Assembly (NCBI RefSeq): GCF_014202945.1
Contig: NZ_JACHHW010000002.1
Span: forward strand, 1 to 64,000
Direction: 5' to 3'
Source of the DNA: Zhongshania antarctica
GTDB taxonomy: Bacteria; Pseudomonadota; Gammaproteobacteria; Pseudomonadales; Spongiibacteraceae
Length of the DNA: 64,000 nt
How positions within the stretch are numbered: the first letter of the stretch is position 1; every line of letters begins with the position of its first letter. The translations under genes were made by a program, and so were the position numbers. Positions 5,203-35,726 of the stretch are shown one piece after another. Below the pieces are notes generated by a model. It searched no databases, was not told the origin of the DNA, and saw only the letters and a list, made by a program, of their open reading frames with translations.

Positions 5203-5267
5203 GCCTTTACCGCCAGTTATAGCGTAATTGCCCAATAGAAATAATATGGACAATAGCCACGCTCAGT

Positions 5268-5301
5268 GTCGTCAAATGATAAACATATGTCATCAAATGA
5301 C
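5268..5301 (+). promoter_or_regulatory. Candidate AraC operator: two direct repeats 21 bp apart
   Basis: GTCGTCAAATGAT (5268-5280) and GTCATCAAATGAC (5289-5301) are direct repeats offset by exactly 21 bp, two helical turns, as in paired half-sites bound by AraC-family proteins. The second copy is also a small palindrome (GTCAT-CAA-ATGAC). They lie about 90 bp upstream of the TonB receptor start. A separate inverted repeat TGCCG-N9-CGGCA follows at 5308-5326. Confidence 0.6.
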
Positions 5302-5389
5302 AATTATTGCCGTAGGAATATCGGCATTCTCCACGCTCGTAAAACTGTCGTACCCGATCAGCCCTGTCATAGTTTTAAAGGAATAGTCC

Positions 5390-7825
5390 ATGCAGCAACG
5401 TCGCCCACACGCATATAAGAGTCGCCGGAATCTATTACGCGCCGGTATTTGCCTTGCCATTGCCAGCTCAAGCAGCACTGTTTTTGCTGCGCCAATGCTT
5501 GAAGAGGTACTAGTTACCGCGCAAAAGCGCAGTCAAAGCACCCAGGATATACCCGTAGCGGTCACCGGCTTAACGGGCACTCAACTCGACAAATACGGTT
5601 TTGAAAATGCCAGCGACATTTCTGCACAGGTTCCCAATATGCAGGTCAGTGGCCCCTACGGCGACATTCAACCAATCTTTGCGATTCGCGGCGTCAGCAT
5701 GTCTGACTATAGCTCTAACCAGGCCAGCCCAATTGGTGTGTATGTTGACGAAACGTATTTAGCCCCGGTGTACAGCCATGGCGCTAACTTTTTTGACATT
5801 GAACGTCTTGAGGTTCTGCGTGGCCCTCAAGGTACGCTTTACGGTAAAAATACCACCGGCGGTGCGATCAACATCATCACTCGCACCCCCCAATTTAGCG
5901 ACGAGCCCAGCAATTACATCAAGCTCGGTGCTGGCAGCTTTAATGCCACCAGCGCTGAAGCGGGCGCAGAAACCCAGCTCATTGACGGTATTCTCGCGGC
6001 ACGCGGTGCATTAAGTTTCAAGCGCGACGAAGGTTACGTCGACATTGTCGGTCGTAGTGAAAAAGGCGCCCAAACCGATTTTCAAGGCGGCCGCTTCGCC
6101 TTGCATTTTGCGCCCAACGACACCTGGGACGCCGTCTTTAAATACACTACCTCTGGTAACGACGCCCTGAGCACGCCAGCCCGAAATGAAGGTCGCACCG
6201 ATCTTCTCGGTGCCCCGAATTCAGATTACAACGCCTACTCACGTCAGAGCCGCAATTTAGATTTCCATGAAACTGAGGCCAATGAAGTTGGCGCGCTGAT
6301 CACCAATACTGAAATCCTCGGCTTAACCGTCACCTTTGCTGGCGATGGTTTCTCTATCACCTCGGTATCGTCTTATTATGACGCCGACTATTATCAAAAA
6401 GCAGACACCGACGGCTCGCCCAACGACTTGCTCACCATCACCTGGTCGTCAGACACCATCGGCTACAGCCAGGATCTGCGTTTCTCTTCGGAATTCGACG
6501 GCATGTTCAACATCATTGCCGGTGTGTATTTCGGCTATGAAGACCAATATATGCACAATATCTACGACATCTTTGACACACCACCAGATGTACGAGTTGG
6601 TCTTGCAAAACCCGATACAGTTCAACAATATCCATTTTTGCTCGATTACGGCATGCTCGATCAGCGCATGGAAACCCAAAAAACTAGTTTAGCCGCTTAC
6701 TCTCAGATGCGTTTTGATTTTACTGACCGCTTCGGCATGGATTTAGGTCTGCGCTACACCAAAGACGGCAACGAGCAAACCTACTTCAATATTTCCCGGG
6801 TCGGTTATGACGGCAGCCCTCGAGGGACTTATGTACCGGGCAACACCACCGGAGTTGACGACGCCTATATTTCGCTACCACTGTCGCAGTCGCAGCTAAT
6901 TGATATTCTCGGCGACCCAACGCTATTGCTAAACCTACTAAACATCGGCTATACCCACGGCCCCTACACACTCGACTCGGCGCCCGAGCTCGAGGCAAAT
7001 GAAGCGGAGTGGACTGGCAAACTTGGCCTTGACTACCGCATAAACGAAGATGTAATGGTCTATGTAAGCGCTAGCCACGGCTACCGCAGCGGCAGTTTCA
7101 ATGGCGGCGCGTACTATCTCGCCCGCCCTATCGAGACCGCCTATGCATCACCAGAATATATTGACGCGTTTGAAGTTGGCTTCAAAGCCGACCTGCTCGA
7201 CAACAGCATGCGCTTGAACGCAGCACTGTTCTCCTACGATTACACCGACCAGCAATTTATCAACGTCGTCGGCTTCTCTAACTTCCTTGAGAACGCGGGT
7301 AGTTCAAAAATTGCTGGCGCCGAAGCAGAATTGTGGGCACGCATAACGGAAAGACTCACCCTGCAAATTGGTCTTGGCTTTTTGCAAACCGAGTTCTCTG
7401 AGTTGACCCTAGCCAATACCGAAACCATTGCTGACGCAGATGATCGGGTTGACCTAAGCGGCAATGAGCTAATCTCAGCACCCAAGCTGAACTACAGCAT
7501 TTCGCTGGATTACGATATTTTGGTGACCGAAGCGGGCTACCTCACCACCAACCTAAATGGCAACTTCCAAGATGACCAGTGGTATAGCGCCTACAACGAT
7601 GAATACGGCTACGGCGCTATTCGCCAAGACGCCTATTGGTTGTTCAACGCACGCACCAGCTGGCACGCCGCCGACGACAGCTACTCTGTGTCGCTGTGGG
7701 TGAAGAATCTGATGGATGAAGAGTACGATAGCTACGCGATTAATCTGCAAGCAGGCTTCGGGCACGACAACTACCTTGCCGGCCCACCACGGAGCTATGG
7801 TGCGGAATTTACGTATCGCTTCTGA
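5390..7825 (+). CDS. TonB-dependent outer-membrane receptor
   Basis: 811-residue receptor for energy-dependent uptake across the outer membrane. A signal peptide ends near VFA-AP, followed by a TonB-box-like LEEVLVTAQKR. The plug domain (about 40-160) carries VYVDETYL and the conserved end DIERLEVLRGPQGTLYGKNTTGGAINIITR. The rest forms the beta barrel and finishes with the aromatic GAEFTYRF, the usual C-terminal assembly signal. AAAGGA precedes the ATG at 5390. Candidate AraC-box repeats upstream and the adjacent AraC gene suggest induction by the substrate of the neighbouring monooxygenase/lactonase pair. The plug resembles receptors common in degraders of hydrophobic compounds, but the ligand is not deducible. 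Confidence 0.93.
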   Translation: MQQRRPHAYKSRRNLLRAGICLAIASSSSTVFAAPMLEEVLVTAQKRSQSTQDIPVAVTGLTGTQLDKYGFENASDISAQVPNMQVSGPYGDIQPIFAIRGVSMSDYSSNQASPIGVYVDETYLAPVYSHGANFFDIERLEVLRGPQGTLYGKNTTGGAINIITRTPQFSDEPSNYIKLGAGSFNATSAEAGAETQLIDGILAARGALSFKRDEGYVDIVGRSEKGAQTDFQGGRFALHFAPNDTWDAVFKYTTSGNDALSTPARNEGRTDLLGAPNSDYNAYSRQSRNLDFHETEANEVGALITNTEILGLTVTFAGDGFSITSVSSYYDADYYQKADTDGSPNDLLTITWSSDTIGYSQDLRFSSEFDGMFNIIAGVYFGYEDQYMHNIYDIFDTPPDVRVGLAKPDTVQQYPFLLDYGMLDQRMETQKTSLAAYSQMRFDFTDRFGMDLGLRYTKDGNEQTYFNISRVGYDGSPRGTYVPGNTTGVDDAYISLPLSQSQLIDILGDPTLLLNLLNIGYTHGPYTLDSAPELEANEAEWTGKLGLDYRINEDVMVYVSASHGYRSGSFNGGAYYLARPIETAYASPEYIDAFEVGFKADLLDNSMRLNAALFSYDYTDQQFINVVGFSNFLENAGSSKIAGAEAELWARITERLTLQIGLGFLQTEFSELTLANTETIADADDRVDLSGNELISAPKLNYSISLDYDILVTEAGYLTTNLNGNFQDDQWYSAYNDEYGYGAIRQDAYWLFNARTSWHAADDSYSVSLWVKNLMDEEYDSYAINLQAGFGHDNYLAGPPRSYGAEFTYRF

Positions 7826-7829
7826 TCCC

Positions 7830-7895
7830 TTAGCGTCAGCCAGCTGACGCTAAACCTCTGTCGATAGCAGGTCACGCAAGGAAGCGACCTGCTAT
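7830..7895 (+). terminator. Two consecutive hairpins after TonB receptor
   Basis: Hairpin 1: TTAGCGTCAG (7830-7839) pairs with CTGACGCTAA (7844-7853). Hairpin 2: ATAGCAGGTC (7864-7873) pairs with GACCTGCTAT (7886-7895), optionally extended by an inner CGC/GCG. Neither has a clear U-tract, so termination is likely but not certain. Confidence 0.55.
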
Positions 7896-7962
7896 ATACT
7901 GCAACCATTACCACGCCCCTCCTCCTGCTCAGCAAAACTCACATTATTGAAGGCCGTGCACT

Positions 7963-8107
7963 CGCTACGCCGTATCCGTGTGGGGAAAAACCTCGCCGAT
8001 GAAGAATACGATGTCTACGGTATCAACCCGCAAGCGGGTTTTGGTCACGACAAAACCTTGGCGACCAACCCAGTAGTTATGGTGCGGAGACGACTTATTG
8101 TTTCTAA
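7963..8107 (+). pseudogene. Remnant of a second TonB receptor C-terminus
   Basis: Translating across frames gives RYAVSVW, then KNLADEEYDVYGINPQAGFGHD, then GDQPSSYGAETTYCF and a stop. This lines up with the last 45 residues of the intact receptor just upstream (SYSVSLWVKNLMDEEYDSYAIN, QAGFGHD, PPRSYGAEFTYRF). The three pieces lie in three different frames, so at least two frameshifts have occurred. It begins about 140 bp after the intact gene's stop, has no start codon and no upstream barrel, and looks like what remains of a tandem receptor copy after deletion. Confidence 0.85.
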
Positions 8108-8314
8108 TAATTAGCACCGGAATATTAACGTTGCACCGCCATTAACACCCTCTACTTCCCGCAAAAAGAGCGACTTGTCTCGGCACGCTCCAACGCAAAC
8201 ACTAAGCATAAGCTGCGCATTCTACGTATTGAAAGCGTCCTAACAATATAGGCAATATGGTGGCCTGTGTACTCATCCATTCCGCAACACAGCCGGAATA
8301 GGAGCCGTAAGTCT

Positions 8315-9025
8315 ATGAACCCTACAATACTTGGCCGCACCCAACCCAGTCCGATTTCGCTGGGGCAACTACTGGTATCAGGCGGGTTCATTACGACTGG
8401 CACACTGAATCAGGCCTTGAGCACCCAGCGCTGGAGCCGTCGCCGCCTAGGCGACGTTCTGATGCAGCGCCACGAACTTTGCGCAGTTGAAAAACAAACG
8501 ATACTCGCCTTGCAAAAAAAACTTGCCTCGCAGGCACTTGAGCTTAAGCCTGACGGCAGTATGCCCAAAGCTCTACAGCTAAGCTTAGGTCAGTTATTGC
8601 TAGACAATGGCGAAATCACCCAATCACAACTGGACAAAGCGCTAGCCGAGCACAACAGCCAGCATCGTCGCCTTGGTGAGGTTTTAATTGAGCAGCAGGT
8701 ACTTTCGCCAATTTGCCTAGCACACTGGCTGCAACTGCAGAAGAAGTTGATTAGCGCCGCCGCGGTCGCGGCTTGGATGATGGCGGGCAGTTGCAATGTC
8801 GCCGCCGACGAAAATAAAACTAGCCTCTGGCAAAAATTTATCGCAGGCAAATTAACAATAGAAAAAGCAGCAGACAGTAAGAACACGTGGGGACAGCAAG
8901 GCACAGAAAAAGTGTCTAGGCTGAATATAAAAAATCGCGACCTCAGTGAGTTAAGCCGCAGCAGCGATGGCACGCTCACCCTTCGACTTGGTCAACAAGG
9001 TTTAAATATTGTGAAGCGGTTTTAA
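8315..9025 (+). CDS. MshEN-repeat protein (GspE/PilB N-terminal-like), no ATPase domain
   Basis: 236-residue protein from the ATG at 8315, which has GGAG at 8301-8304; an upstream in-frame ATG at 8267 lacks a site. Two related units, each starting S-L-G-Q-L-L, continue as LGQLLVSGGFITTGTLNQAL with RRLGDVLMQ, and as LGQLLLDNGEITQSQLDKAL with RRLGEVLIEQ. This is the N-terminal fold of type II secretion/pilus ATPases (GSPII_E_N/MshEN), a known cyclic-di-GMP-binding module, here without an attached ATPase. A short hydrophobic stretch (AAAVAAWMMAGS) follows, then a polar tail. It may be a stand-alone c-di-GMP or scaffold protein for exopolysaccharide or surface export; no partner is adjacent. Confidence 0.65.
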   Translation: MNPTILGRTQPSPISLGQLLVSGGFITTGTLNQALSTQRWSRRRLGDVLMQRHELCAVEKQTILALQKKLASQALELKPDGSMPKALQLSLGQLLLDNGEITQSQLDKALAEHNSQHRRLGEVLIEQQVLSPICLAHWLQLQKKLISAAAVAAWMMAGSCNVAADENKTSLWQKFIAGKLTIEKAADSKNTWGQQGTEKVSRLNIKNRDLSELSRSSDGTLTLRLGQQGLNIVKRF

Positions 9026-9111
9026 GCTTTCGATGAATGATCACAATAAAAACAAAAATGGCGAGCAATTTATAAGATAGGCGCCGACTCCTTTACTTTG
9101 CGCCTTGACAC

Positions 9112-9969
9112 TCAATCCTCTTCATTCGCCTCGCGAATCCGTTCACGGCGCTCGGCTTCTTCGGCCATGACCGCCTTAATTTCCATTAAGACCGCATCAA
9201 CATCGGCAGCTTCGCCACTGTCTTCAAACAAGCCCGTTAACTCGGTGTCTTCATTGAGTTCGCCCTCTTCATACAAGGCCCAGATTTCATCGGCGTAGCG
9301 GGTTTGCAATAACTCGGGGGCGTATTGACCATAGTATTCGGTCATATTATTGACGTCTCTCGTCAACATACTGTGGGCATTATTATTGCCAGCGGCATCA
9401 ACAGCTTGGGGCAGGTCGATAATCACTGGCCCGTATTCATCGACCAGTACATTAAACTCAGACAAATCGCCGTGGACCAGGCCTGCGCAAAGCATCAGTT
9501 TTACGTAGTGCATGACCACCGCATGATCTTCTATAGCCTGTTCGGCGGGCATCGACACATCATTCAAGCGTGGCGCTACGCCACCCTCTTCGTCGGTAAC
9601 CAGCTCCATCAGTAGCACGCCATCAAAACAGCCATAGGGCTGCGGCACTCGCACCCCGGCTTTGGCTAAGCGATAAAGCGCATCAACCTCGGCGTTGTGC
9701 CAGGCGTCTTCCTGCTGCTTGCGTCCAAATTTAGAGCCTTTTTCCATTGCTCTGGCGCGGCGGCTATTGCGTACTTTACGGCCTTCTTGATAAAGCACCG
9801 CTTGCTTGAAGCTGCGCTGAGCAGCCTCTTTGTACACTTTGGCACAGCGAATTTCTTCGCCACAGCGCACCACATAGACGGAGGCTTCTTTACCGCTCAT
9901 TAAAGGCCGCAGCACTTCGTCAACAATGCCGTCGTCAATCAGCGGCTGGATACGTTTGGGTGTTTTCAT
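9112..9969 (-). CDS. RIO1-family serine protein kinase
   Basis: 285-residue atypical protein kinase of the RIO family. The glycine loop region reads MSGKEASVYVV, the ATP-binding lysine lies in CAKVYKE, the catalytic loop is HGDLSEFNVLVD and the metal-binding segment is IIDLPQAVD. The acidic C-terminal tail (EEAERRERIREANEED) is typical. Bacterial homologues of similar length are known; their targets are mostly undefined. AAGGGCG precedes the ATG. It is convergent with the MshEN-repeat gene, with 86 bp between stops and no obvious hairpin. Confidence 0.92.
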   Translation of the reverse strand: MKTPKRIQPLIDDGIVDEVLRPLMSGKEASVYVVRCGEEIRCAKVYKEAAQRSFKQAVLYQEGRKVRNSRRARAMEKGSKFGRKQQEDAWHNAEVDALYRLAKAGVRVPQPYGCFDGVLLMELVTDEEGGVAPRLNDVSMPAEQAIEDHAVVMHYVKLMLCAGLVHGDLSEFNVLVDEYGPVIIDLPQAVDAAGNNNAHSMLTRDVNNMTEYYGQYAPELLQTRYADEIWALYEEGELNEDTELTGLFEDSGEAADVDAVLMEIKAVMAEEAERRERIREANEED

Positions 9970-10097
9970 TGCGCCCTTTTTGGGGTCTGAATCAAGACCA
10001 TTTAAGAATAGCTGAAAATCAGCGCCGTTCGGCCATTGTAAACGGCCACGCCAAATTAGGCGATCAGCGCTATATTCACAGTGAGTACGGACAAAGC

Positions 10098-10673
10098 TTA
10101 ATTGGTTTTCTTAACGAAGGCACTGATAATCACGATACGCGTACCATTTATCCGACCTTCAATATGCTCGGGGTTATTCGTCAGGGAGATATTACGCACG
10201 GGCGTTCCACGCTTGCCAACAAAGCTCGTGCCCTTCACATCTAAGTCTTTAATAAGCACCACAGAATCTCCCGCAGCTAGCTGAACGCCATTGCTGTCTA
10301 GGCACGGTTCGCGATCATCGCTGGCCGTAACCTCGGTTGCGACAGCCCATTCTTTGACCTCGTCGTCAAGATAGACCATTTCCAGAAGGTCCTGCGCCCA
10401 CGCCTGTTCACTTAGCCGCGTTAACAGACGATACGACAATACTTGTACTGCGGGAATCGGGCTCCACACGGTGTCATTCAGGCTGTGCCAGCGATTCACG
10501 TCCAGTTCACTGCCGTCAGCCAGTTGTTCTCGGCATGCCTGACAGCTCATCACACAGCGCTCAGCGTCGTCATCCCCATAGGGCGCCACCGGAAACACCG
10601 CCAAATGCTCGGCAGAAGAACACAGTTCGCATTTAGAGTCGCTGCGCTGCATAAGGGCTTGTTCGGTGTTCAT
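10098..10673 (-). CDS. PhnA-domain zinc-ribbon protein (YjdM-like)
   Basis: 191-residue PhnA-family protein. The N-terminal part carries CELC and CQAC pairs, a zinc ribbon (CELCSSAEHLAVF to VMSCQACREQL). The C-terminal PhnA domain has DSNGVQLAAGDSVVLIKDLDVKG, then GKRGTPVRNISLTNNPEHIEGRINGTRIVI. Despite the historical name, the family is not clearly tied to phosphonate breakdown. It stands alone between the RIO kinase and the bactofilin gene. Confidence 0.88.
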   Translation of the reverse strand: MNTEQALMQRSDSKCELCSSAEHLAVFPVAPYGDDDAERCVMSCQACREQLADGSELDVNRWHSLNDTVWSPIPAVQVLSYRLLTRLSEQAWAQDLLEMVYLDDEVKEWAVATEVTASDDREPCLDSNGVQLAAGDSVVLIKDLDVKGTSFVGKRGTPVRNISLTNNPEHIEGRINGTRIVIISAFVKKTN

Positions 10674-26588: not shown

Positions 26589-27630
26589 GTTTCAATGGCC
26601 ATGGATATTTGTTCTGCTGCCGCTGCCCATACTGGTGCGCTGGCTATCAAAAGCCCAGAACCGCGCCAGCGGCGCCGCACTGCGGGTCCCGTTTTTTGCC
26701 CAGCTGCGCAGCCTAAGTGGCGAACAAAACACCCCCGCGGTCAGCGGCAACAAATTTCATTTATTGCTCCTCAGTTTGCTGTGGCTGGCGTTGCTCGCGG
26801 CCTGCGCCAGACCCATTTGGATTGGCGATGCCGTTGCCATGCCCACCAATGGTCGCGACTTAATGCTTGCGGTGGATATTTCTGGCTCTATGTCCCAGGA
26901 AGATATGATCATCCAAGACGAGGCCCTACCCCGCCTCACGGTGGTAAAAGCCGTTGTAAACCAATTTGTGGAGCAGCGTCGGGGCGATAAACTCGGCCTT
27001 ATTTTATTTGGCTCACAACCCTATATTCAGTCGCCGCTGACCTTTGATCTGGACACGGTTAACACCTTAATGAACGAGGCTCAGGTCGGCTTTGCCGGTA
27101 AACAAACGGCTATTGGCGACGCCATTGGCTTTGCCATAAAACGTCTGCGCGAGCGGCCCGAAAATAGCCGCGTAGTTGTCTTGCTCACTGACGGCGCCGA
27201 CACCGCCAGCAATTTAAAACCCCTCGAAGCCAGCAAATTAGCCGCTGCCGAAAAAATTAAAATTTACACTATTGGCGTTGGCGCCACGGAGATGCGCGTG
27301 CCCGGCATTTTCGGCAGCAGCTTCGGTGCCCGCACCGTTAACCCCTCCGCCGATCTCGACGAAGGCACCTTACAAAGTATTGCCGACACAACAGGCGGCG
27401 CCTATTACCGCGCCCGCAATCCCGCCGAGCTGCAAGCTGCTTATGCGGCCATTGCCGCCTTAGAGCCAGTGGAGCAAGAACAGGAAATGCTCAGGCCTGA
27501 GCGCTCGCTATTGCACTGGCCACTATTGGCCGCCGCCGGTCTTTGGCTACTATTAGCCCTTGGCCGTAATCTGCCTGCGCTGCCGGTACGCAGCAATGCC
27601 GTAAACACGAAAAATGAGGCCGCGCAATGA
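26581..27630 (+). CDS. vWA-domain membrane protein (BatA-like)
   Basis: 349 residues. Two N-terminal hydrophobic helices (about 8-22 and 58-80) precede a vWA domain with the metal-ion motif DISGS (about 98-102) and the downstream Thr (VLLTDGAD segment). Near the C-terminus another helix (LLHWPLLAAAGLWLLLALG) anchors the protein. The architecture matches BatA, in which the vWA domain projects from the inner membrane and works with MoxR. It overlaps its neighbours by 8 bp (upstream) and 4 bp (downstream). Confidence 0.9.
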   Translation: MFEFQWPWIFVLLPLPILVRWLSKAQNRASGAALRVPFFAQLRSLSGEQNTPAVSGNKFHLLLLSLLWLALLAACARPIWIGDAVAMPTNGRDLMLAVDISGSMSQEDMIIQDEALPRLTVVKAVVNQFVEQRRGDKLGLILFGSQPYIQSPLTFDLDTVNTLMNEAQVGFAGKQTAIGDAIGFAIKRLRERPENSRVVVLLTDGADTASNLKPLEASKLAAAEKIKIYTIGVGATEMRVPGIFGSSFGARTVNPSADLDEGTLQSIADTTGGAYYRARNPAELQAAYAAIAALEPVEQEQEMLRPERSLLHWPLLAAAGLWLLLALGRNLPALPVRSNAVNTKNEAAQ

Positions 27631-29594
27631 ACCTGCCCAGCCTGCACTGGATTCGCCCCGACTTGCTGTGGACCATTATTCCGCTGCTCATTGCCGCGCT
27701 GCTTCTAGCCCGCCAAAGTCGTCAACAGGGGGCCTGGCACAAGCATATTGATCCTAGTCTGCTGCCCTATTTGCTCGACGGTCAACGCAGCGACAAACCG
27801 GCGCGCTCCATCGCGCTATTACTCTTGGCGGCGCTACTCGCGTGGCTGGCACTGCTCGGTCCCGCTTGGCAGCAAGCTCCCACACCGCTCTACAAGAACA
27901 ATGAGGGCATGGTGGTGGTCTTGGATTTATCACCGTCGATGCTCGCCGAAGATATTCAGCCCTCGCGGATTCGCCAAGCCCGCTTTAAACTTCGAGATCT
28001 ACTACAGCTTCGCCAAGACGGCCAAACTGGCTTGGTGGTATTTGCCGCCGACGCATTTGTGGTCGCCCCACTTACTGACGACGTCAACACCTTACTCACG
28101 CTGATCCCCGGTTTACACCCAGGAATGATGCCGCAAACCGGCAGCAACCCCTTGGCGGGGCTAGTACAGGCCAAGGACTTATTGGATCAAAGCGGCGGCA
28201 ATGGCAAAATTTTATTAATAACTGACGGTGTTAATGAGGCGCAACTAAAAGGCTTAAAAAGCTTCCTCAAAGACAGCCCTTACACGCTCTCTGTGCTCGC
28301 CGTTGGCAGTCGCGACGGCGCACCCATTCCCCTGCCTGACGGCGGCTTTGCCAAAGATAATAGTGGCAATATCATTGTTCCCGCGCTGAGCAGCAGCGAA
28401 CTAAAAGCCCTTGCCAGCGCCGGTGGCGGTGAGTATCGGGAGCTAAGCCTAGACGACAGCGATATTCGCGCCTTAAACCCTGACGCCGCCAGCTTGGCCG
28501 AAAGCAGCCAAGATCCGTCAAGCACATCCTCAGATCGCCACTTTGACCAATGGAAAGACGCTGGCGGCTGGCTGGCCTTATTACTGCTGCCACTGGCCTT
28601 ACTGGGCTTTCGGCGCAGCTGGCTGCCCAGCCTATTACTGCCGCTATTGTTGCTGGGCCAAACTCCGCAGGCCAATGCCGTTGAATTCGACGCCCTGTGG
28701 CAGACCCCAGATCAACGCGGCGCCGCGTTATTAGACAGCGACCCGGCAGCGGCAGCGGAACAATTTAAAGACCCCGCGTGGAAGGCCAGCGCCCAGTACC
28801 GCGCGGGCGATTATGCCGCAGCAGCCGAAAGCTACGCCAAACTCCCCGGCAGCGACGCAGCGTATAATCGCGGCAATGCCCTGGCCAAAGCCGGCAAGCT
28901 AGATGAGGCCCTAGCGGCCTTCGACGAGGCATTAAAACATGAGCCCGATATGAGTGATGCCCTGCGCAACAAAAAAATACTCGAAGACCTGAAAAAACAA
29001 CAAGAACAGCAGCAAAACCAAGACCAGTCTGGCGACGGTGACAAGCAGGACAAAGATCAGCAATCTCAGTCGTCTGAGCAAGAAAATCAACAGGGCCAAG
29101 ACGGCCAACAAACGCCCTCAGATCAAGAGCAACAGGGCGAGCAAGGTCAGCCGCAATCGGATCAAGAACAATCCGAACAACAAAATTCCAATGACCAAAA
29201 AGAGGGCCAGACACCGCCAAATCAAGAGCAGCCCGATTCCTCACCGCAGGAGCAAAGCGAGTCCAGCGCCGAGCAAAAGAAGGCGCAAAAAGAACAGCAG
29301 GACGCCGAGCAGCGCCAGACCGAATTAGCCGAGGACTACGCCAAGCAAGCTGCTGAGCAACAAGCTGCGGCGGCCGAGCAAAAAAACGACGCCAACCCAG
29401 ATGAGCAAAGCGAGCAAACCGCGCTTGCTGAAAGCCAACAACCGCTGAGCGAAGAAGACCAATCCAAAGAACAGTGGCTGCGTAAGATTCCCGATAACCC
29501 CGGCAATCTACTGCGCAATAAATTTCAGTACCAGCAACAAATGCGTCAACAACGTGGCAATCAAATTGAGCGAGAGAATTATGCGCCCTATTAA
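27627..29594 (+). CDS. vWA-TPR fusion protein (BatB plus BatC)
   Basis: 655 residues. The order is N-terminal membrane helices (about 12-25, 60-75), a vWA domain with MIDAS motif DLSPS near 99-103, two more helices (about 310-350), a signal-peptide-like stretch ending QANAVEF, then TPR units (about 385-450: AQYRAGDYAAAAESYAKL, AYNRGNALAKAGKLDEALAAFDEAL). From about 450 to 620 comes a very Gln/Glu/Asp/Ser-rich, presumably disordered tail. BatB and BatC are separate proteins in Bacteroides; a fusion is the common gammaproteobacterial form. The tail composition makes antisense frames look open, but these are shadows. Confidence 0.9.
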   Translation: MNLPSLHWIRPDLLWTIIPLLIAALLLARQSRQQGAWHKHIDPSLLPYLLDGQRSDKPARSIALLLLAALLAWLALLGPAWQQAPTPLYKNNEGMVVVLDLSPSMLAEDIQPSRIRQARFKLRDLLQLRQDGQTGLVVFAADAFVVAPLTDDVNTLLTLIPGLHPGMMPQTGSNPLAGLVQAKDLLDQSGGNGKILLITDGVNEAQLKGLKSFLKDSPYTLSVLAVGSRDGAPIPLPDGGFAKDNSGNIIVPALSSSELKALASAGGGEYRELSLDDSDIRALNPDAASLAESSQDPSSTSSDRHFDQWKDAGGWLALLLLPLALLGFRRSWLPSLLLPLLLLGQTPQANAVEFDALWQTPDQRGAALLDSDPAAAAEQFKDPAWKASAQYRAGDYAAAAESYAKLPGSDAAYNRGNALAKAGKLDEALAAFDEALKHEPDMSDALRNKKILEDLKKQQEQQQNQDQSGDGDKQDKDQQSQSSEQENQQGQDGQQTPSDQEQQGEQGQPQSDQEQSEQQNSNDQKEGQTPPNQEQPDSSPQEQSESSAEQKKAQKEQQDAEQRQTELAEDYAKQAAEQQAAAAEQKNDANPDEQSEQTALAESQQPLSEEDQSKEQWLRKIPDNPGNLLRNKFQYQQQMRQQRGNQIERENYAPY

Positions 29595-31371
29595 GCACGG
29601 CCTAGTTGCCCTGAACAAAATCAATACAGGCACCAGCATGCATGTTCATCAAGTTGGCTTTCGCCAAATAAAAGCCGCCACCCTTGGCATATTGCTGCTA
29701 AGCCTGCTCTGCTGGGTACCCAGCGCCTTTGCCGAAACCAATGTGCGCGCCAGCGTAGATCGGCAACAAATTTCTAGCGAAGAAACCTTTACGCTGTCAC
29801 TGGTCGCAGACAGTATTTTATTTTCTGGCGAACCTGATGTAAGCGCGCTAGAAAAAGACTTTCATATTATTAATCGCCAGCAAAGTAGCCGCACAAATAT
29901 TATCAACGGCAAGGTCAACAGCAGCCGTCAATGGGATTACACGCTTGCCCCAAAACGCGAAGGCACGCTAACCATCCCCGCCATTCCAATGGGCAAATTT
30001 CAGACTCGGGCGCTAACCATTTCCGTCGACAAGGCCAACCGCCAGACTCGCGGCGCCAATGGTGACAGTGTGTATTTAGAGTCCGACGTCACGCCCCGCT
30101 CTGCCTATGTGCAGGCGGAGCTGCAATACACCGTTAAAATTTTTACCTCCATTAATTTTTTAGACGCGTCTCTTGAGGCTCCCGAAGTGGAGAATGCCGT
30201 GGTGGAAGCCACAGGCGAACAGCGCTACCAAACCCTCGTCGATGGCCGTTACTACCAAGTGATTGAGCGCCGCTATTCCATTTACCCACAAACCAGCGGC
30301 GAGCTAAGCATTCCCGCGCTAACCTTGCAGGCGCGAGTAGAAGGCTACCGCCCATCAATGCTCGACCCCGGCCGCTTGGTGGTAAAACGCAGCCAAGAGC
30401 ACCACCTCAATATTAAGCCGCCACCAGCAGAATTTAAGGGCGCGGTGTGGTTGCCGGCCAAGAAACTAGCCCTGGCCGAAAGCTGGAGCAAAGACCCCGA
30501 CGGCATCCAAATAGGCGATTCTATTACCCGTACTGTGAACATTCAGGCCAAGGGTTTACTCGGCTCACAGTTGCCTGCACTGCCGACCTATACCCTAAGC
30601 AAGGCCAAACTCTACCCAGATCAAGCCAAAATTGAACAGGGCGACGAGCAGTCAGAGTGGAGCGGCGTGCGCAGTGAGTCCGTCGCGATTATCCCGACCG
30701 TGGCCGGTGAGTTGGTGTTGCCCGAAGTGCGCATTCCCTGGTGGAATACGACCACCAATAAGGCCGAAGTGGCAGTGCTGCCAGAGCGCCGCATCACCGT
30801 TGCACCCGGCATGTTAAACAATGTGAATTCCACGCCGCTCAACACAAGCAATTCAGCACCAAATCAAAGCCTGGCGTCAAACCTAGCGGAGAATACCCCG
30901 GCAACCACCAGCAGTGCCGAACAAACAACGGCTAACACCCGCCTTTGGATGGTCATTGCGGCATTGTGCCTGAGCAATATTGGCTTTGCTCTAGCATGGC
31001 TGCGCAGCCGCAACGGAGCGATAAACGCCAACAATAGCGTTAGTGTAAAACCGGAAAACGAGAGCGAGGCGGCCGCATTTAGCAAGCTCAAAAAATGCGT
31101 CCAAGCGAATGCAGACGCCAGCAGCCTGCGTGGCGCGCTAGTAAACTGGGGGCAATGCTATTACCAGCAAGCCCTAAGCCTTAGCCAGTTAGGCGCACGC
31201 GCCAAGGAACTTGAACACTATTGCCAAGCGTTGGACGCCCAGCTTTTCGCTGGTCGCGATGCGAAAATTGACGCCAAGGCGCTGTTAGATGCGGTAAAAA
31301 AACTACGCGCCACGAAGCAGCCAAAAAATGCCGCTAGCGCGCCTTTAGCCCCGCTGTATCCGTCGACGTAG
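29581..31371 (+). CDS. BatD-like oxygen-tolerance protein
   Basis: About 596 residues. A signal peptide with core LGILLLSLLCW and cleavage near AFA-ET precedes tandem beta-sandwich (BatD) domains: VRASVDRQQISSEETFTLSLV, GTLTIPAIPMG, YVQAELQYTVKIF and SGELSIPALTLQ. A C-terminal transmembrane helix (about 460-480) and a short cytoplasmic helical domain follow. The start is ambiguous: 29581 overlaps the previous stop by 14 bp with GAGAG upstream; 29638 (ATG after ACAGG) gives a more usual signal length. It closes the MoxR/Bat operon and overlaps the convergent transporter gene by 38 bp. Confidence 0.88.
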   Translation: MRPIKHGLVALNKINTGTSMHVHQVGFRQIKAATLGILLLSLLCWVPSAFAETNVRASVDRQQISSEETFTLSLVADSILFSGEPDVSALEKDFHIINRQQSSRTNIINGKVNSSRQWDYTLAPKREGTLTIPAIPMGKFQTRALTISVDKANRQTRGANGDSVYLESDVTPRSAYVQAELQYTVKIFTSINFLDASLEAPEVENAVVEATGEQRYQTLVDGRYYQVIERRYSIYPQTSGELSIPALTLQARVEGYRPSMLDPGRLVVKRSQEHHLNIKPPPAEFKGAVWLPAKKLALAESWSKDPDGIQIGDSITRTVNIQAKGLLGSQLPALPTYTLSKAKLYPDQAKIEQGDEQSEWSGVRSESVAIIPTVAGELVLPEVRIPWWNTTTNKAEVAVLPERRITVAPGMLNNVNSTPLNTSNSAPNQSLASNLAENTPATTSSAEQTTANTRLWMVIAALCLSNIGFALAWLRSRNGAINANNSVSVKPENESEAAAFSKLKKCVQANADASSLRGALVNWGQCYYQQALSLSQLGARAKELEHYCQALDAQLFAGRDAKIDAKALLDAVKKLRATKQPKNAASAPLAPLYPST

Positions 31372-32236
31372 GCTCTGGTGGACTGCGCAATACCAACACC
31401 CCACCCAGCACCACGCAAATTATCCCGACCAAGGTTAGGTGGTCGGGAATATGATCCCATATCAACCAATCTATAACCCCGCTGAAAACCACCGCAAAAT
31501 AGCTTATCGGCGCCGATACCGAGGCCGATATATAACGGTATGCCAAGGTATAAAGAACAAAACCCAAATAAATGACCACGCCCATATACACCAAGCCCGG
31601 CCATGCCGACAGGGGAATTGGCTGATAATGAAACAAAAAGAAGGGCAAACTCACAATGACAGAGATCAAAAAATAGTAAAACAGTATTCGGTTTTGCGGC
31701 TCACCCTGCATTAACTCACGGGTACTGATCATCGACACGGCTAAACCCAAGGCCGACAACAAGGCCAGGACATGCCAGACACTGAATCCGGCAAAGCCTG
31801 GTTTTAACACCAGCACCACCCCAATAAAACCAATGAGCAATGGCGGCCAAGCATGGCGACCTACCCGCTGTTTAAACCATAGCAAAATAACAACTGGCAC
31901 CATTAAGGGGGCCGAAGCCCGCAAGAGGGTCGCCTCCACCAAGGAGATATGACTTAGAGCGAGATAAAACAAATAGAAACAAGCGCAACCACTAACACCG
32001 CGCACAAGATGCAAGCCGGGACGACGAGTAACCAAACTCCCCCGTCCAGCCCGCATAATCGACGGCAAGGCAAACAAGAAACTCAGGCCGTACTGCACCA
32101 TAACAATAGCGGAAACATGGACCTCTTGGGAGACGTGTTTACCTACCGCCGCGACGGTGCTCGACAGCAACACAGTCAGTAAGGACAGTGCCAAACCAGT
32201 GAGCAGTTGTTTTTTGGGGGTAGAAACAGTAATCAA
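31334..32236 (-). CDS. EamA/DMT-family transporter
   Basis: 300 residues with ten predicted membrane helices in two EamA halves. Typical blocks are ALSHISLVEATLLRASAPLMVPVV ending the first half, then AYRYISASVSAPISYFAVVFSGVIDWLIW and GIICVVLGGVLVL in the second. The drug/metabolite transporter superfamily exports amino acids, nucleobases or other metabolites; the substrate is not predictable. It begins with TTG at 32236 (no ATG alternative near the N-terminus). Its 3' end overlaps the convergent BatD gene by 38 bp, which leaves no room for a separate terminator. Confidence 0.88.
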   Translation of the reverse strand: MITVSTPKKQLLTGLALSLLTVLLSSTVAAVGKHVSQEVHVSAIVMVQYGLSFLFALPSIMRAGRGSLVTRRPGLHLVRGVSGCACFYLFYLALSHISLVEATLLRASAPLMVPVVILLWFKQRVGRHAWPPLLIGFIGVVLVLKPGFAGFSVWHVLALLSALGLAVSMISTRELMQGEPQNRILFYYFLISVIVSLPFFLFHYQPIPLSAWPGLVYMGVVIYLGFVLYTLAYRYISASVSAPISYFAVVFSGVIDWLIWDHIPDHLTLVGIICVVLGGVLVLRSPPEPTSTDTAGLKAR

Positions 32237-32365
32237 GGACAGATCTCAATATTGCCAGCTGCCACACTATAAAGAGGCCTTGATCCATTGGCCAGCGAGA
32301 TCGATGCGAGACAGTACTCACCCAGCCCAAAACCAAGCAGCTGGGCGAGCACTCAGCGGACGGTA

Positions 32366-32692
32366 TTACTTTTTAGCGCCGCATTTCGCTTCGCCACATT
32401 TGCCTTCTTTGGCAGCCTTATCGGCACCGCATTTGGCTTCACCACATTTACCTTCTTTGGCCGCTTTGTCGGCGCCGCATTTCGCTTCGCCACACTTGCC
32501 TTCTTTGCTCGCTTTGTCAGCGCCGCACTTGGCTTCGCCGCACTTACCCTCAGCGTCTTTGGCGTAGTCGGCCAACTGGTAGCCACTGCTCATTACTTTG
32601 GCAGCAAAGGGGTTGGTATCGGCTACCGCAACAGAGGCCATTGAAGAAGCAAGTATCGCGGCGCTAAAAGCAGTCATCGCAGTTTTTTTCAT
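32366..32692 (-). CDS. hvfA: HvfA-type EGKCG RiPP metallophore precursor
   Basis: 108 residues from ATG 32692 (AAGGGTGA 7 bp upstream). A signal peptide (AMTAFSAAILASSMASVAVA) is followed by a leader with NPFAA and SGYQLA, matching the HvfA family. Four core units follow, each EGKCGEAKCG plus a spacer (ADKASK or ADKAAK), giving eight Cys. In known HvfA/bufferin-2 peptides, DUF692 (MNIO) enzymes turn the Cys of EGKCG into oxazolone-thioamide groups that bind copper. No DUF692 or HvfC gene occurs anywhere in this window; if the peptide is modified, the enzymes lie elsewhere. It is divergent from HvfX/DoxX and shares a matching ECF-type promoter. Family assignment is strong; modification here is inference. 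Confidence 0.88.
   Translation of the reverse strand: MKKTAMTAFSAAILASSMASVAVADTNPFAAKVMSSGYQLADYAKDAEGKCGEAKCGADKASKEGKCGEAKCGADKAAKEGKCGEAKCGADKAAKEGKCGEAKCGAKK
32369..32551 (-). repeat. Four 48-bp tandem repeats in the HvfA gene
   Basis: Three full 48-bp units and one partial unit encode the EGKCGEAKCG repeats. Differences between units are nearly all at third codon positions (for example TTC/TTT-type swaps in Lys and Cys codons on the coding strand), so the DNA copies have diverged while the peptide has been held constant. The one visible amino-acid change is Ser for Ala in the first spacer. Confidence 0.85.
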
Positions 32693-32752
32693 GTTGTCGT
32701 CACCCTTAATAAATGAAGTTTTATATTGGTCGTCCAATGACGACACTCGCCA

Positions 32753-32781
32753 TTAGAGGAATCTTATTGCCGAGTGTTACA
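32753..32781 (-). promoter_or_regulatory. Candidate ECF sigma promoter for hvfA
   Basis: Read leftward: -35 TGTAACA (plus-strand 32775-32781), 15-base spacer, -10 CCTCTAA (plus-strand 32753-32759). Its -35 is identical, and its spacer equal in length, to the promoter of the divergent HvfX gene. It ends about 60 bp before the hvfA start. Confidence 0.6.
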
Positions 32782-32812
32782 AAGCCAATGCAAATAATTT
32801 ATCGACCTTTTC

Positions 32813-32841
32813 TGTAACAAGTTTGCGTGCTCTGCGTCTCA
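32813..32841 (+). promoter_or_regulatory. Candidate ECF sigma promoter for HvfX gene
   Basis: -35 TGTAACA (32813-32819), 15-base spacer, -10 CGTCTCA (32835-32841). This has the TGTAAC/CGTC form typical of many ECF promoters and ends 52 bp upstream of the HvfX ATG. The sigma factor gene 0.8 kb downstream is the obvious candidate to read it. Confidence 0.65.
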
Positions 32842-32893
32842 TTGCCAATCAATCGGCGAGTACCGCATTGCCCTCTTCTACGGAGTTCTGTTC

Positions 32894-33511
32894 ATGGTAG
32901 ATTTTTTTAGCTCTTTACACCGCGCCCACCACAAACTGGGCGCGACGCTGGCGCATCTTGATGGTATTCCAGCTTTGGGCCTACGTCTCTACTTGGTGCC
33001 GGTTTTTTGGATGGCCGGCAGCAGTAAAATGGCCAATTTTGCGGCAACGGCAGACTGGTTTGGCAATAGCGACTGGGGCTTGGGACTGCCCTTTCCCTAT
33101 GTGCTGGCATTTCTCGCCACCGCAACCGAGGTACTGGGCGCGGGTCTATTGCTGCTTGGTCTCGCAAGTCGCTGGATCGCCATTCCGCTCGCCATCACGA
33201 TGGTCGTTGCCGCCTTAAGCGTGCACTGGCAATTTGGCTGGCAGGCGATTGCCGATGCCAGCGCGCCTTTTGCCAATACGAGAGTCGCCGAGTCCGTAGA
33301 CAAGCTCGCCGCCGCTCGCTCGCTGCTAGAAGCTCACGGCAACTACGACTGGCTAACATCCAGTGGCAATATTGTTATTCTCAATAACGGCATTGAGTTC
33401 GCGGCGACGTATTTATTTATGTTACTGGCCTTAATGGCCCTAGGTGGCGGCCGCTATGTCAGCGCGGACTACTGGCTAAAGCGAAAATTTGAGCACGCAG
33501 CGAAGGTATAA
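32894..33511 (+). CDS. DoxX-family membrane protein (HvfX-like)
   Basis: 205 residues with four membrane helices in the DoxX fold: LYLVPVFWMAGSSKM, PYVLAFLATATEVLGAGLLLLGL, AIPLAITMVVAALSVHWQFGWQ, then IEFAATYLFMLLALMALGGG. A longer loop (about 115-160) separates the third and fourth helices and contains WQAIADASAPFAN, as in HvfX proteins that accompany HvfA operons. DoxX-type partners are thought to help mature or export the copper-binding peptide, but their biochemistry is unsettled. It has a GGAG site before the ATG and its own ECF-type promoter. The sigma factor begins 93 bp downstream, so sigma and anti-sigma genes may be co-transcribed with it. Confidence 0.82.
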   Translation: MVDFFSSLHRAHHKLGATLAHLDGIPALGLRLYLVPVFWMAGSSKMANFAATADWFGNSDWGLGLPFPYVLAFLATATEVLGAGLLLLGLASRWIAIPLAITMVVAALSVHWQFGWQAIADASAPFANTRVAESVDKLAAARSLLEAHGNYDWLTSSGNIVILNNGIEFAATYLFMLLALMALGGGRYVSADYWLKRKFEHAAKV

Positions 33512-33603
33512 GTATAAGAGCGAGCAGAACTTTATAGCGAAAACGCGGTGACGAGCTTGCGCCAGCACCTCGGGATCAGTGACACTAGCGGCATAATCTG
33601 GGT

Positions 33604-34230
33604 TTGGAAACCTCTGTGTCACAACTCATCAATGATCCTAAGTTTATTGCGCGCCTGCAGTCTGGGGACAATAGCGCCTTTAAATCGCTCATCGGCACCT
33701 ACCACAGCAAATTGCTGATCGTCGCGCGGGCGATTGCTGGCGATGTGTTTGCAGAGGACGTCACGCAAGAGGCCTGGGCATCTATTTACAAGGCCGTTGG
33801 TAAATTTGAAGGGCGCTCCAGCCTGTCGACGTGGATGATCCAAATTGTGAGCAATGAAGCCAAATCACGACTGCGCCGAGAAAAACGCCACAGCAGTTAT
33901 GGTGATGTCAGTGATATTGGTCAGGGTGTCGACCCCGACGCTTTTGACAGCAATGGGCATTGGAGCAACCCGCCCGCGCATTGGGATATTAATACCCCAG
34001 AGCTAATGCTGCAGGAAGATCAGCTGCGCCAATGTATAGAGCACACGTTAACGGTGTTACCAGAAAACCAGAAAGCGGTGTTTTTATTACGTGATGTTGA
34101 ACAGAGCGATTTAAGTGAAATTGCCGACACACTGGCAATCAGCCAGGCCAATGTGCGGGTACTACTACACCGCGCTAGATTACGGTTAATGACGACGATC
34201 AATCACTACCAGGAGACCGGCGAATGCTAA
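33604..34230 (+). CDS. ECF RNA polymerase sigma factor
   Basis: 208 residues. Region 2 reads AEDVTQEAWASIYKAVGKFEGRSSLSTWMIQIVSNEAKSRLRR; region 4 has LTVLPENQKAVFLLRDVEQSDLSEIADTLAISQANVRVLLHRARLRL. The loop between them is long and rich in Asp/Pro (VDPDAFDSNGHWSNPPAHWD). The listed start is TTG 33604; GTG 33616 with GGAAA upstream is equally possible. Its stop overlaps the ATG of a zinc-finger anti-sigma gene by 7 bp. Such pairs often respond to oxidative or metal stress and control hvf/buf operons. Both divergent promoters between hvfA and HvfX match a TGTAACA/CGTCT pattern that this sigma could recognise; this is inferred from position. Confidence 0.92.
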   Translation: METSVSQLINDPKFIARLQSGDNSAFKSLIGTYHSKLLIVARAIAGDVFAEDVTQEAWASIYKAVGKFEGRSSLSTWMIQIVSNEAKSRLRREKRHSSYGDVSDIGQGVDPDAFDSNGHWSNPPAHWDINTPELMLQEDQLRQCIEHTLTVLPENQKAVFLLRDVEQSDLSEIADTLAISQANVRVLLHRARLRLMTTINHYQETGEC

Positions 34231-34484
34231 ATTGCAAACAGTTTACCGATCTCGCCAGCGATAACCTCGACGCCCAGTACCACGGCTGGAAGCGTATTGA
34301 TATTCGCCTGCACTTGCTCCTTTGTCGGCACTGCCGCCGCTTCAATCGTCATCTTGACCGCAGTCGTCGCACGGGCGCCGAGCTCGCGAAAACACTCTGG
34401 CAAATCGACAGCGCCTCCAGCGAACACATCTTCTCCCGCATTCAGCCCACGACAAAGCAAAATAACGGGGACGGCACGCCTTGA
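34224..34484 (+). CDS. Zinc-finger anti-sigma factor
   Basis: 86 residues. The zinc site of the zf-HC2/ZAS type is visible: Cys4, then His30, Cys34 and Cys37 in HLLLCRHC. There is no membrane segment, so it is a soluble ChrR/RsrA-like anti-sigma. A redox change or metal competition at the zinc site would release the sigma factor. Starts inside the sigma gene's stop region (7-bp overlap), so production is coupled. It is convergent with the ethylene-receptor-like kinase, with only 6 bp between stops. Confidence 0.85.
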   Translation: MLNCKQFTDLASDNLDAQYHGWKRIDIRLHLLLCRHCRRFNRHLDRSRRTGAELAKTLWQIDSASSEHIFSRIQPTTKQNNGDGTP

Positions 34485-34490
34485 TTTGGC

Positions 34491-35726
34491 CTATGCCGCG
34501 GGCAAATACACCCGAAACTCACAGCCTTTATCCAACTCACTAATAACATCAATTCGGCCGTCACACTCATCAAGAATGCGCCGACAAATAGCCAAGCCGA
34601 TGCCCGTGCCCTCATAGTCACCCTCTCGGTATAAGCGTTCAAATACGCCATATACTCGGGACTGATAGTGACTGCCAATGCCAATACCATTATCGCGGAT
34701 ATAAAATCCCACCTCGTCTTCACCAGCATCGTCCAAGGGGCCGATTTCCACTACTGGCAGCTTTTGATCGCGACTAAATTTCACCGCATTATCGAGCAGG
34801 TTCGATAGCAATTGGTATAGGGGTGTCGGCGACATATTCACCGTGCCCAGTGGCTTTCGATGCAGCTCAGTGGCGTATTTTTTCATGGCGCCACCGTGCT
34901 CAACAACCGCGCGGTCAAGATACTCATCCAAGGCTAATGGCTCGGCGGGCACCAGCGATTGCGGGGCACAGTACAGCTGTAAATCGTCGATCATTTCGGT
35001 CATGCGCTGGGTTGCCCCAACCATGGTCTGCAACCACTTCGCCTCATCCTCCTGAAGGGTTTCACCTAGGCGTTCATTCAATAGCTGACCGAATACCGAA
35101 ATAGAGCGCAGCGGCTCCTTGATGTCATGCGCCGTTACCTTGGCGTACTCCTCCAATGCAATATTAGAGCGTTCCAATGAGGCATGATTTTTTTCCAGCA
35201 AGGTTTTCATGACTAGGGTTTCTGCCAGTTCTTGAGTACGCTCAGCGACCAATTCCTCTAGGTCTTTAGTCAAACGGTCAACCTGCTGCTTTTGGCGCCG
35301 ATTTTCGTCAGCCTCTTCTCTAAGCTGTTGATTTAAAGCAATAAGCTGCACATTGCTAGGAATGGCTAGGGCCTTGGGAATCAGCGGCCAAACTACAATC
35401 GCGGTGCCCACCGAGGCGATGGCGGTAATTAATTTGACGCCGCCGCTAAGCCAATAGGCGCCATACCAAACATTGAAGATATTGACGAGATGGGTTGCGC
35501 CGCAGGCGAAGATGAAAATCGCAAACATCACAAATATGTAGTTAAACTTGAGGTCATCGCGCTTTCGTACTAAATACACGAGGGCAACAGGAATGGTGAA
35601 GTAAGACAAGCTAATCAGCACATCACTGATAACATGAAGACGAACCAAATCTTCATTCCACAAATAGCAATGCCCATGGGGCGGCATTTCCGGCCCCAGC
35701 AACTTGTTCAAAAACTCATTAGCCAT
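34491..35726 (-). CDS. Histidine kinase with ethylene-receptor (ETR1-like) sensor domain
   Basis: 411 residues. The N-terminus has three membrane helices (about 34-53, 62-83, 92-118) that match the plant ethylene-binding domain: VISDVLISLSYFTIPVALVY, then FACGATHLVN. Asp35, Tyr42, Cys75 and His79 have the same mutual spacing as Asp25, Tyr32, Cys65 and His69 of ETR1, where Cys and His bind Cu(I). No GAF domain follows; instead a coiled coil (about 130-190) leads to the phytochrome-type H-box HDIKEPLRSI (His near 200) and an ATPase with NLLDNAVKF, DNGIGI and GTGIGLAI. Bacterial ethylene receptors of this type are known in cyanobacteria and some others. No response regulator is adjacent. Being next to copper-peptide genes suggests shared copper supply; that link is inference. 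Confidence 0.9.
   Translation of the reverse strand: MANEFLNKLLGPEMPPHGHCYLWNEDLVRLHVISDVLISLSYFTIPVALVYLVRKRDDLKFNYIFVMFAIFIFACGATHLVNIFNVWYGAYWLSGGVKLITAIASVGTAIVVWPLIPKALAIPSNVQLIALNQQLREEADENRRQKQQVDRLTKDLEELVAERTQELAETLVMKTLLEKNHASLERSNIALEEYAKVTAHDIKEPLRSISVFGQLLNERLGETLQEDEAKWLQTMVGATQRMTEMIDDLQLYCAPQSLVPAEPLALDEYLDRAVVEHGGAMKKYATELHRKPLGTVNMSPTPLYQLLSNLLDNAVKFSRDQKLPVVEIGPLDDAGEDEVGFYIRDNGIGIGSHYQSRVYGVFERLYREGDYEGTGIGLAICRRILDECDGRIDVISELDKGCEFRVYLPAA

Follow-up and report, generated by a model that had tools for sequence, protein, structure and literature searches.

How an HvfA-family precursor is served when no modification enzyme is encoded around it is the question raised by positions 32366-34484 of the DNA stretch analysed here (64,000 nucleotides of Zhongshania antarctica, a member of the Spongiibacteraceae, hereafter the window; contig C2 of genome G000). 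The locus hosts the gene of an EGKCG-repeat precursor, hvfA1, divergent from hvfX, which is followed by an extracytoplasmic function (ECF) sigma factor gene and a zinc-type anti-sigma gene. It is very probably one half of a single HvfABCX copper-peptide system of the oxazolin/captophorin type, split over two sites of the genome and run as one regulon. This conclusion is supported by the presence of a single MNIO enzyme, by KCG repeats found at two sites only, by an exact promoter occurring once per site, and by the conservation of that promoter, modelled as a position weight matrix (PWM), in related genomes.

Organization of the hvf genes

The hvfA1 gene (32366..32692, minus strand) encodes 108 amino acids from an ATG at 32692. 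This start was placed from the sequence; the mechanically called open reading frame begins at a GTG at 32746 and is longer. HvfA1 is made of a Sec-type signal sequence, a segment running from NPFAAK to SSGYQL and four EGKCGEAKCG units, and contains eight cysteines and eight KCG motifs. The KCG-repeat model KCGExKCG_twice (NF050137) matches the protein at E 5.6e-32 (109.1 bits, cut-off 19.5). The whole-protein equivalog OxThioModRiPPHvfA (NF050188), a narrow model above cut-off in only one of 292 genomes of the order, scores 64 bits (E 1.5e-17), below its cut-off of 95.

Three genes are found on the plus strand. The first, hvfX1 (32894..33511), encodes a membrane protein of the DoxX family (PF07681; NF050144, 225.3 bits, cut-off 80). 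The second, ecf (33604..34230, TTG start), encodes the sigma factor, with Sigma70_r2 and r4_2 domains above cut-off, and is probably co-transcribed with hvfX1. The third (34224..34484) overlaps ecf and encodes an anti-sigma factor of 86 amino acids (antisigmaE NF052368, 55.9 bits, cut-off 50). Its position downstream of the sigma gene, Cys4 and a His-x3-Cys-x2-Cys motif (His30, Cys34, Cys37) are those of the MseR type. Relatives were sought in 21 genomes of the family, 18 of the genus of the window and three of another genus. A homologue of the sigma factor is encoded in all (E<=2.8e-44), and the four residues are kept in 20 of the 20 anti-sigma homologues found; none was matched in G001 at the threshold used. 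All four genes lie as described in the first-pass annotation of the window, which had also reported that no DUF692 enzyme or HvfC partner is encoded in the 64 kb; a tblastn search of the window with HvfB and HvfC gave no match at E<=1.

The enzyme is encoded elsewhere. In the whole genome (3.85 Mb, 26 contigs, completeness 100) the sole MNIO gene, hvfB, is found on contig C4 (C4:204910-205692), in an operon ordered hvfA2, hvfB, hvfC, where hvfA2 encodes a second EGKCG precursor and the gene upstream is hrpA. HvfB and HvfC score above the cut-offs of their family models (424.8 bits against 360, and 308.8 against 142), as does HvfX. The genome-wide enzyme search suggested by the annotation hence returned a single MNIO with HvfC beside it, and the name of minimal system given to the locus is wrong for the genome as a whole, since hvfBC are present on C4. 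HvfABCX are not encoded in one operon: hvfA1 and hvfX are on C2, hvfBC and hvfA2 on C4. KCG repeats are confined to the window locus and the C4 operon.

No Pfam family was found at E<=0.01 in HvfA1, HvfA2 or the anti-sigma factor. Membership in the bufferin Buf1 or ECF16-NrsF groups was rejected, as neither a DUF2282 precursor nor a NrsF anti-sigma factor was detected by Pfam at this threshold.

A second, lone hvfX family gene, hvfX2, is located on contig C6 (C6:195569-196120; positions 1273-2130 of locus L012), with neither precursor nor motif, between genes that we take to be moeB-like and rhlE-like. It was considered as a third site of the regulon and dropped: the 3.5 kb locus contains no TGTAAC, and C6 no KCG match.

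A promoter motif common to the two sites

An ECF-type promoter, TGTAACA-N15-CGTCT, is located in front of the hvfX-ecf-anti-sigma genes (32813..32839, plus strand), its first base 81 bp before the ATG of hvfX. A mirror copy, TGTAACA-N15-CCTCT (32755..32781, minus strand), starts 89 bp before the ATG of hvfA1. The same TGTAACA-N15-CGTCT recurs on C4 (C4:204245-204271), 144 bp before the ATG of hvfA2, as putative promoter of hvfA2BC. The genome search for this motif proposed by the first-pass annotation has therefore one match per hvf site. The pattern TGTAACA-N{14,16}-CGTCT has exactly two matches in the 3.85 Mb, these same two. The reversed control likewise has two, so that the count is uninformative, and it is the positions of the matches that inform. 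The relaxed pattern TGTAACA-N15-CNTCT has seven matches (reversed control, one), located before hvfA1, hvfX, hvfA2 and msrP and at three places of unclear meaning.

Conservation of the promoter was assessed in the family with a PWM built from 16 hvfX promoters only, picked by the pattern itself, and then applied to other genes. The matrix scores at least 14 bits before hvf(A2)BC in 19 of 21 genomes, always with a spacer of 15; the exceptions are G015, where 10.1 bits are reached, and G020, which has a N16 variant only. All 14 orphan hvfA1 loci are preceded by the motif (13.6-19.9 bits). Matches of at least 14 bits number 50 in 1.22 million strand-bases, and comprise the 16 training promoters, 19 before hvf(A2)BC, 12 before hvfA1 and three elsewhere. 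In G014, where hvfX is missing from the locus, the motif is found directly before ecf.

Precursors and enzyme in related genomes

The arrangement of hvfA1 divergent from hvfX-ecf-anti-sigma is no accident of this genome, being found in 14 of the 18 genomes of the genus, and in none of the three of the other genus. G013 and G019 have hvfX-ecf without hvfA1, and G014 has ecf without hvfX. In G020 ecf, hvfABC and hvfX are in one place, and the sigma factor is only 37-38 percent identical. One hvfB gene, above cut-off, is present in each of the 21 genomes. The hrpA gene lies directly upstream of hvf(A2)BC in 20 of them (as at 4296-10478 of locus L002; the exception is G020), which marks the site as the same across genomes. 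In 17 genomes hvfA2 is directly before hvfB. It is absent in G010, G011, G015 and G018; here the orphan hvfA1 is the sole hvfA, yet hvfBC are kept behind hrpA, and the motif precedes hvfB by 61, 61, 134 and 107 bp, respectively. No KCG precursor was found at the hvfB site of these four genomes, where small cysteine-containing frames listed by the script were not examined singly. A tree of HvfB, HvfC and the ECF factor places the four in two pairs (support 100 for both), with other genomes between the pairs. Every family genome has at least one hvfA; either precursor may be lost, reciprocally, but never both.

When HvfA1 and HvfA2 come from the same genome, their signal/leader segments have 17-24 of 36 residues in common. 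In Haemophilus the HvfA signal peptide acts as leader, and modification by HvfBC is efficient only when the signal sequence is present (PMC13419390). Taken together, the two observations support one enzyme pair for both precursors.

The search was widened to 292 genomes of the order, with thresholds of E<=1e-80 for hvfB and E<=1e-4 for hvfA. The former was found in 152 genomes, the latter in 114. Orphan hvfA genes, away from hvfB and not at a contig end, occur in at least eight genomes outside the family, five of family f33 and three of f36, and all eight listed adjoin hvfX and an ECF gene. In five further genomes (G128, G182, G282, G234, G022) the hvfA match lies at the end of a contig or close to it, with hvfB elsewhere or absent, and these were not counted. 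In G081, of f33, the only hvfA sits beside ecf and hvfX, with hvfBC 0.5 Mb away; TGTAACA-N15-CGTCAAAT is found 58 bp before hvfB and TGTAAGA-N15-CGTCAAAT 73 bp before hvfA. A contiguous relative is found in Pseudomonas sp. BMS12, where ecf, anti-sigma gene, motif and hvfABCX stand in one row, and this supports the assignment of the dispersed parts to one system. A scan of the named genomes gave 80 ECF loci, mostly without hvf genes in their flanks.

In a Methylophaga record (L203, 2883-5585) hvfA, hvfX and a MsrP gene are adjacent and ecf is divergent; hvfB is not found in the 10.6 kb covered.

Weighing of the explanations

The two sites might host two systems, HvfBC serving HvfA2 only, and HvfA1 being a spare or differently used paralogue which shares the sigma factor. 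The frequent adjacency of hvfA2 and hvfB, and the absence of hvfA1 in G013, G014 and G019, fit this explanation. It is nevertheless improbable, as HvfBC would be left without a KCG substrate in G010, G011, G015, G018 and G081, and as the loss of precursors is reciprocal throughout the 21 family genomes.

Still less likely is that HvfA1 acts unmodified, as a plain Cys-rich buffer of metals or thiols, the second option offered by the first-pass annotation. The gene does not adjoin hvfBC, and a large survey of MNIO enzymes, in the part available, allows that precursors unlinked to MNIO genes might either be processed by a distantly encoded enzyme or stay unmodified (PMC12452194). Against this, the leader-like segment and the EGKCG context are kept, hvfB is retained in all 21 family genomes, and four of these, in two clades, as well as G081, possess the orphan as their single hvfA and retain hvfBC behind the same motif. 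These genomes favour modification in trans, and because of them the unmodified precursor was rejected as principal explanation.

Very unlikely is the co-regulation of both sites by an ECF factor other than that of the window: the gene at C4:97485 also encodes a protein of the ECF type, with 33 percent identity, and recognition of the promoter by the window sigma factor is suggested by adjacency only, but the motif precedes the operon of the window sigma factor itself, or ecf directly in G014, as autoregulation predicts, and among the motif matches of the genome none is reported beside the C4:97485 gene.

A single system split over two sites is the explanation that we favour, and several observations weigh against it. 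In the window genome hvfA2 is beside hvfBC, and HvfBC have a local substrate. This is literally the situation, hvfBC adjacent to a second complete hvfA, that the first-pass annotation had named as contrary to its idea; relatives lacking hvfA2 rescue the idea. Across the 21 family genomes, matches to the exact N15 pattern number 37, of which 14 are before hvfX, 8 before hvfA2 or hvfB and 15 at other places, and its reversed control has 17. The -35 element of the C4-type promoter falls on the last hrpA codons, which specify Val-Thr in all the 16 genomes resolved, so its conservation may be partly due to coding; the -10 element is beyond the hrpA stop codon in the same 16 genomes. G020 keeps ecf-hvfABC-hvfX together, without the N15 motif. 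In f36 the motif precedes none of three hvfABC operons, though it is found at all three orphans, and in four of the five f33 genomes it is lacking from at least one of the two sites. Finally, the mmrABC genes of Microbulbifer were not detected or expressed with added copper, according to the part of the study available (PMC12538549). Of the first option of the annotation, enzymes encoded elsewhere and joined to the locus by the sigma factor in one regulon, the enzyme on C4 and the motif at both sites, across the family, bear out the larger part. The joining itself would follow if the window sigma factor reads the motif that lies beside its gene.

Possible further genes of the regulon

The fourth match of interest in the window genome precedes msrP on contig C21 (positions 111-1693 of locus L302), where TGTAACA-N15-CATCT is located 61 bp before the start codon. 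The encoded MsrP is above its family cut-off (485.7 bits), and is followed by a frame which, from its sequence, is msrQ-like. The pair probably makes up a fourth unit transcribed within the regulon.

In the family, the 15 exact matches lying outside hvf genes had been regarded as mere chance, as suggested by the 17 matches of the control. This judgement was revised after each target was inspected. Five are in front of DUF1223 genes, marked by the motif TSEGCSSCP (G005 L125, G008 L128, G017 L132, G018 L133, G016 L308), and three in front of genes for YghU-type glutathione-dependent disulfide-bond oxidoreductases (G006 L126, G012 L130, G016 L120). Two precede MsrP genes (G014, G019) and one a NrtS-like gene (G019); four have no clear target. 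The G016 DUF1223 and G019 MsrP assignments come from tblastn (64-70 percent identity), and all these associations were counted from the motif matches outward, not from all copies of the genes. We know of no function for DUF1223. The company of MsrPQ, DUF1223 and YghU-type proteins suggests that the inducing signal may be envelope oxidative or thiol stress, and not copper alone. Methionine sulfoxide reductase genes are common to several ECF16 regulons, as far as the available part of the source tells (PMC8315932).

A scan of positions 32200-34600 for sigma-70 promoters and terminators was uninformative, with two promoter-like sequences against 1.6 expected and no terminator-like one. Convergent with the anti-sigma gene is a histidine kinase gene (34491-35726, minus strand), the product of which has a membrane domain like that of ethylene receptors (ETR1_N). 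On the other side of the locus, the genes for a VWA/TPR protein and a BatD-like protein (27627-31371) form a Bat-type pair.

Proposed mechanism

The system may work as follows. Site 1, in the window, would provide HvfA1 and HvfX as well as both regulators, the ECF sigma factor and the zinc-type anti-sigma factor. Behind hrpA on C4, site 2 would provide HvfA2 together with HvfBC, the one modification pair of the genome. The sigma and anti-sigma factors would form an autoregulated switch. Once released by the anti-sigma factor, the sigma factor would act at TGTAACA-N15-CNTCT promoters to transcribe the operon in which it is itself encoded, along with hvfA1, hvfA2BC and msrPQ. The HvfBC pair, expressed from site 2, would oxidise the cysteines of both precursors in the cytoplasm, before export, predictably to 5-thiooxazoles, and HvfA1 and HvfA2 would leave by the Sec route. 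In the envelope, the finished peptides may serve to bind copper or to buffer metals, beside the repair of oxidised methionine by MsrPQ. The oxazolone-thioamide named in the first-pass annotation is outdated: the product of HvfBC is now assigned as 5-thiooxazole, with a loss of about 4 Da per cysteine (PMC13419390, PMC13097082, both available in part). On the assumption that the signal peptide is removed in front of DTNPF, mature HvfA1 would have an average mass of 8413.45, falling to 8381.2 once its 8 cysteines are all 5-thiooxazoles.

Every confirmed orphan hvfA read, 14 in the family and at least eight outside, adjoins hvfX and an ECF gene, and this hints at a role of HvfX after maturation. 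As a tentative extension, one sigma factor may govern a distributed regulon of envelope thiol, methionine and metal stress, in which one MNIO pair finishes two precursors of different fate, HvfA2 being made with the enzyme and HvfA1 with HvfX and the regulator. In that case the target of HvfX might be the completed orphan-type peptide, in its loading, redox state or membrane placement, and not maturation.

A clean natural test of modification in trans is offered by those genomes that have no precursor but the orphan and keep hvfBC at a distance under the same motif. For switching on such clusters, a handle is provided by the motif and by the anti-sigma factor, a soluble protein; copper alone failed to switch them on in Microbulbifer (PMC12538549, in the part available). 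Cluster searches restricted to the neighbourhood of MNIO genes would miss half of this system.

Comparison with known systems

That one ECF factor can control dispersed DUF692 operons is already known from Caulobacter, and precursors unlinked to enzymes are known from surveys. In the open-licence literature we found no description of a system in which a precursor and its enzyme are encoded at different sites with a common promoter class, and in which some genomes have the orphan for their only substrate. The systems compared below are described as in the available parts of the papers cited.

The hvfABCX genes of nontypeable Haemophilus influenzae, which direct oxazolin, are alike in encoding a signal-bearing EGKCG precursor, the MNIO HvfB, the DUF2063/RRE protein HvfC, and HvfX. 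They form one operon (PMC13419390), whereas two sites and two precursors are found here, and hvfX is associated with the sigma factor gene.

The Microbulbifer mmrABC genes (bulbicupramide) similarly comprise a precursor, a MNIO and a DUF2063 gene in a marine gammaproteobacterium; in contrast to the window locus, the parts of the report available mention no sigma factor (PMC12538549). ECF-controlled DUF692/DUF2063 genes and TGTAAC-type promoters are also featured by the Sinorhizobium RpoE7 locus, which differs in being contiguous and in having CGAA-type -10 elements (PMC6180224).

Closest in regulation is the sigma-E/MseR pair of Neisseria meningitidis, where an ECF gene is followed by that of a zinc anti-sigma factor of 80-90 amino acids with Cys4, His30, Cys34 and Cys37 (PMC2893595, PMC3240639). 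In MseR (NMB2145) the three cysteines matter for activity, and replacement of His30 by Ala did not release the reporter (PMC2893595). The hvf-like NMB2140-2145 operon includes a DoxX-like gene, its -10 element is CGTCTAAH, and a methionine sulfoxide reductase belongs to the regulon. Unlike the system described here, the meningococcal operon is contiguous, its -35 element is GTMAGBWTT with 12-13 nt spacing, and the reductase is MsrA/B (msrA/msrB) and not MsrPQ (PMC2893595, PMC3240639).

In Caulobacter, sigma-F (ECF16/NrsF type) similarly governs DUF692/DUF2063 operons at two loci and YedY (MsrP), from promoters of the GTAACC-N16-CGAA type. There, however, precursors are of the DUF2282 (Buf1) type, each site has its own MNIO, and the anti-sigma factor is a membrane protein with DUF1109 (PMC3511200). 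In its logic the regulon proposed here matches both, the meningococcal sigma-E regulon with its hvf-like operon and msrAB, and the Caulobacter sigma-F regulon with two DUF692 operons and YedY.

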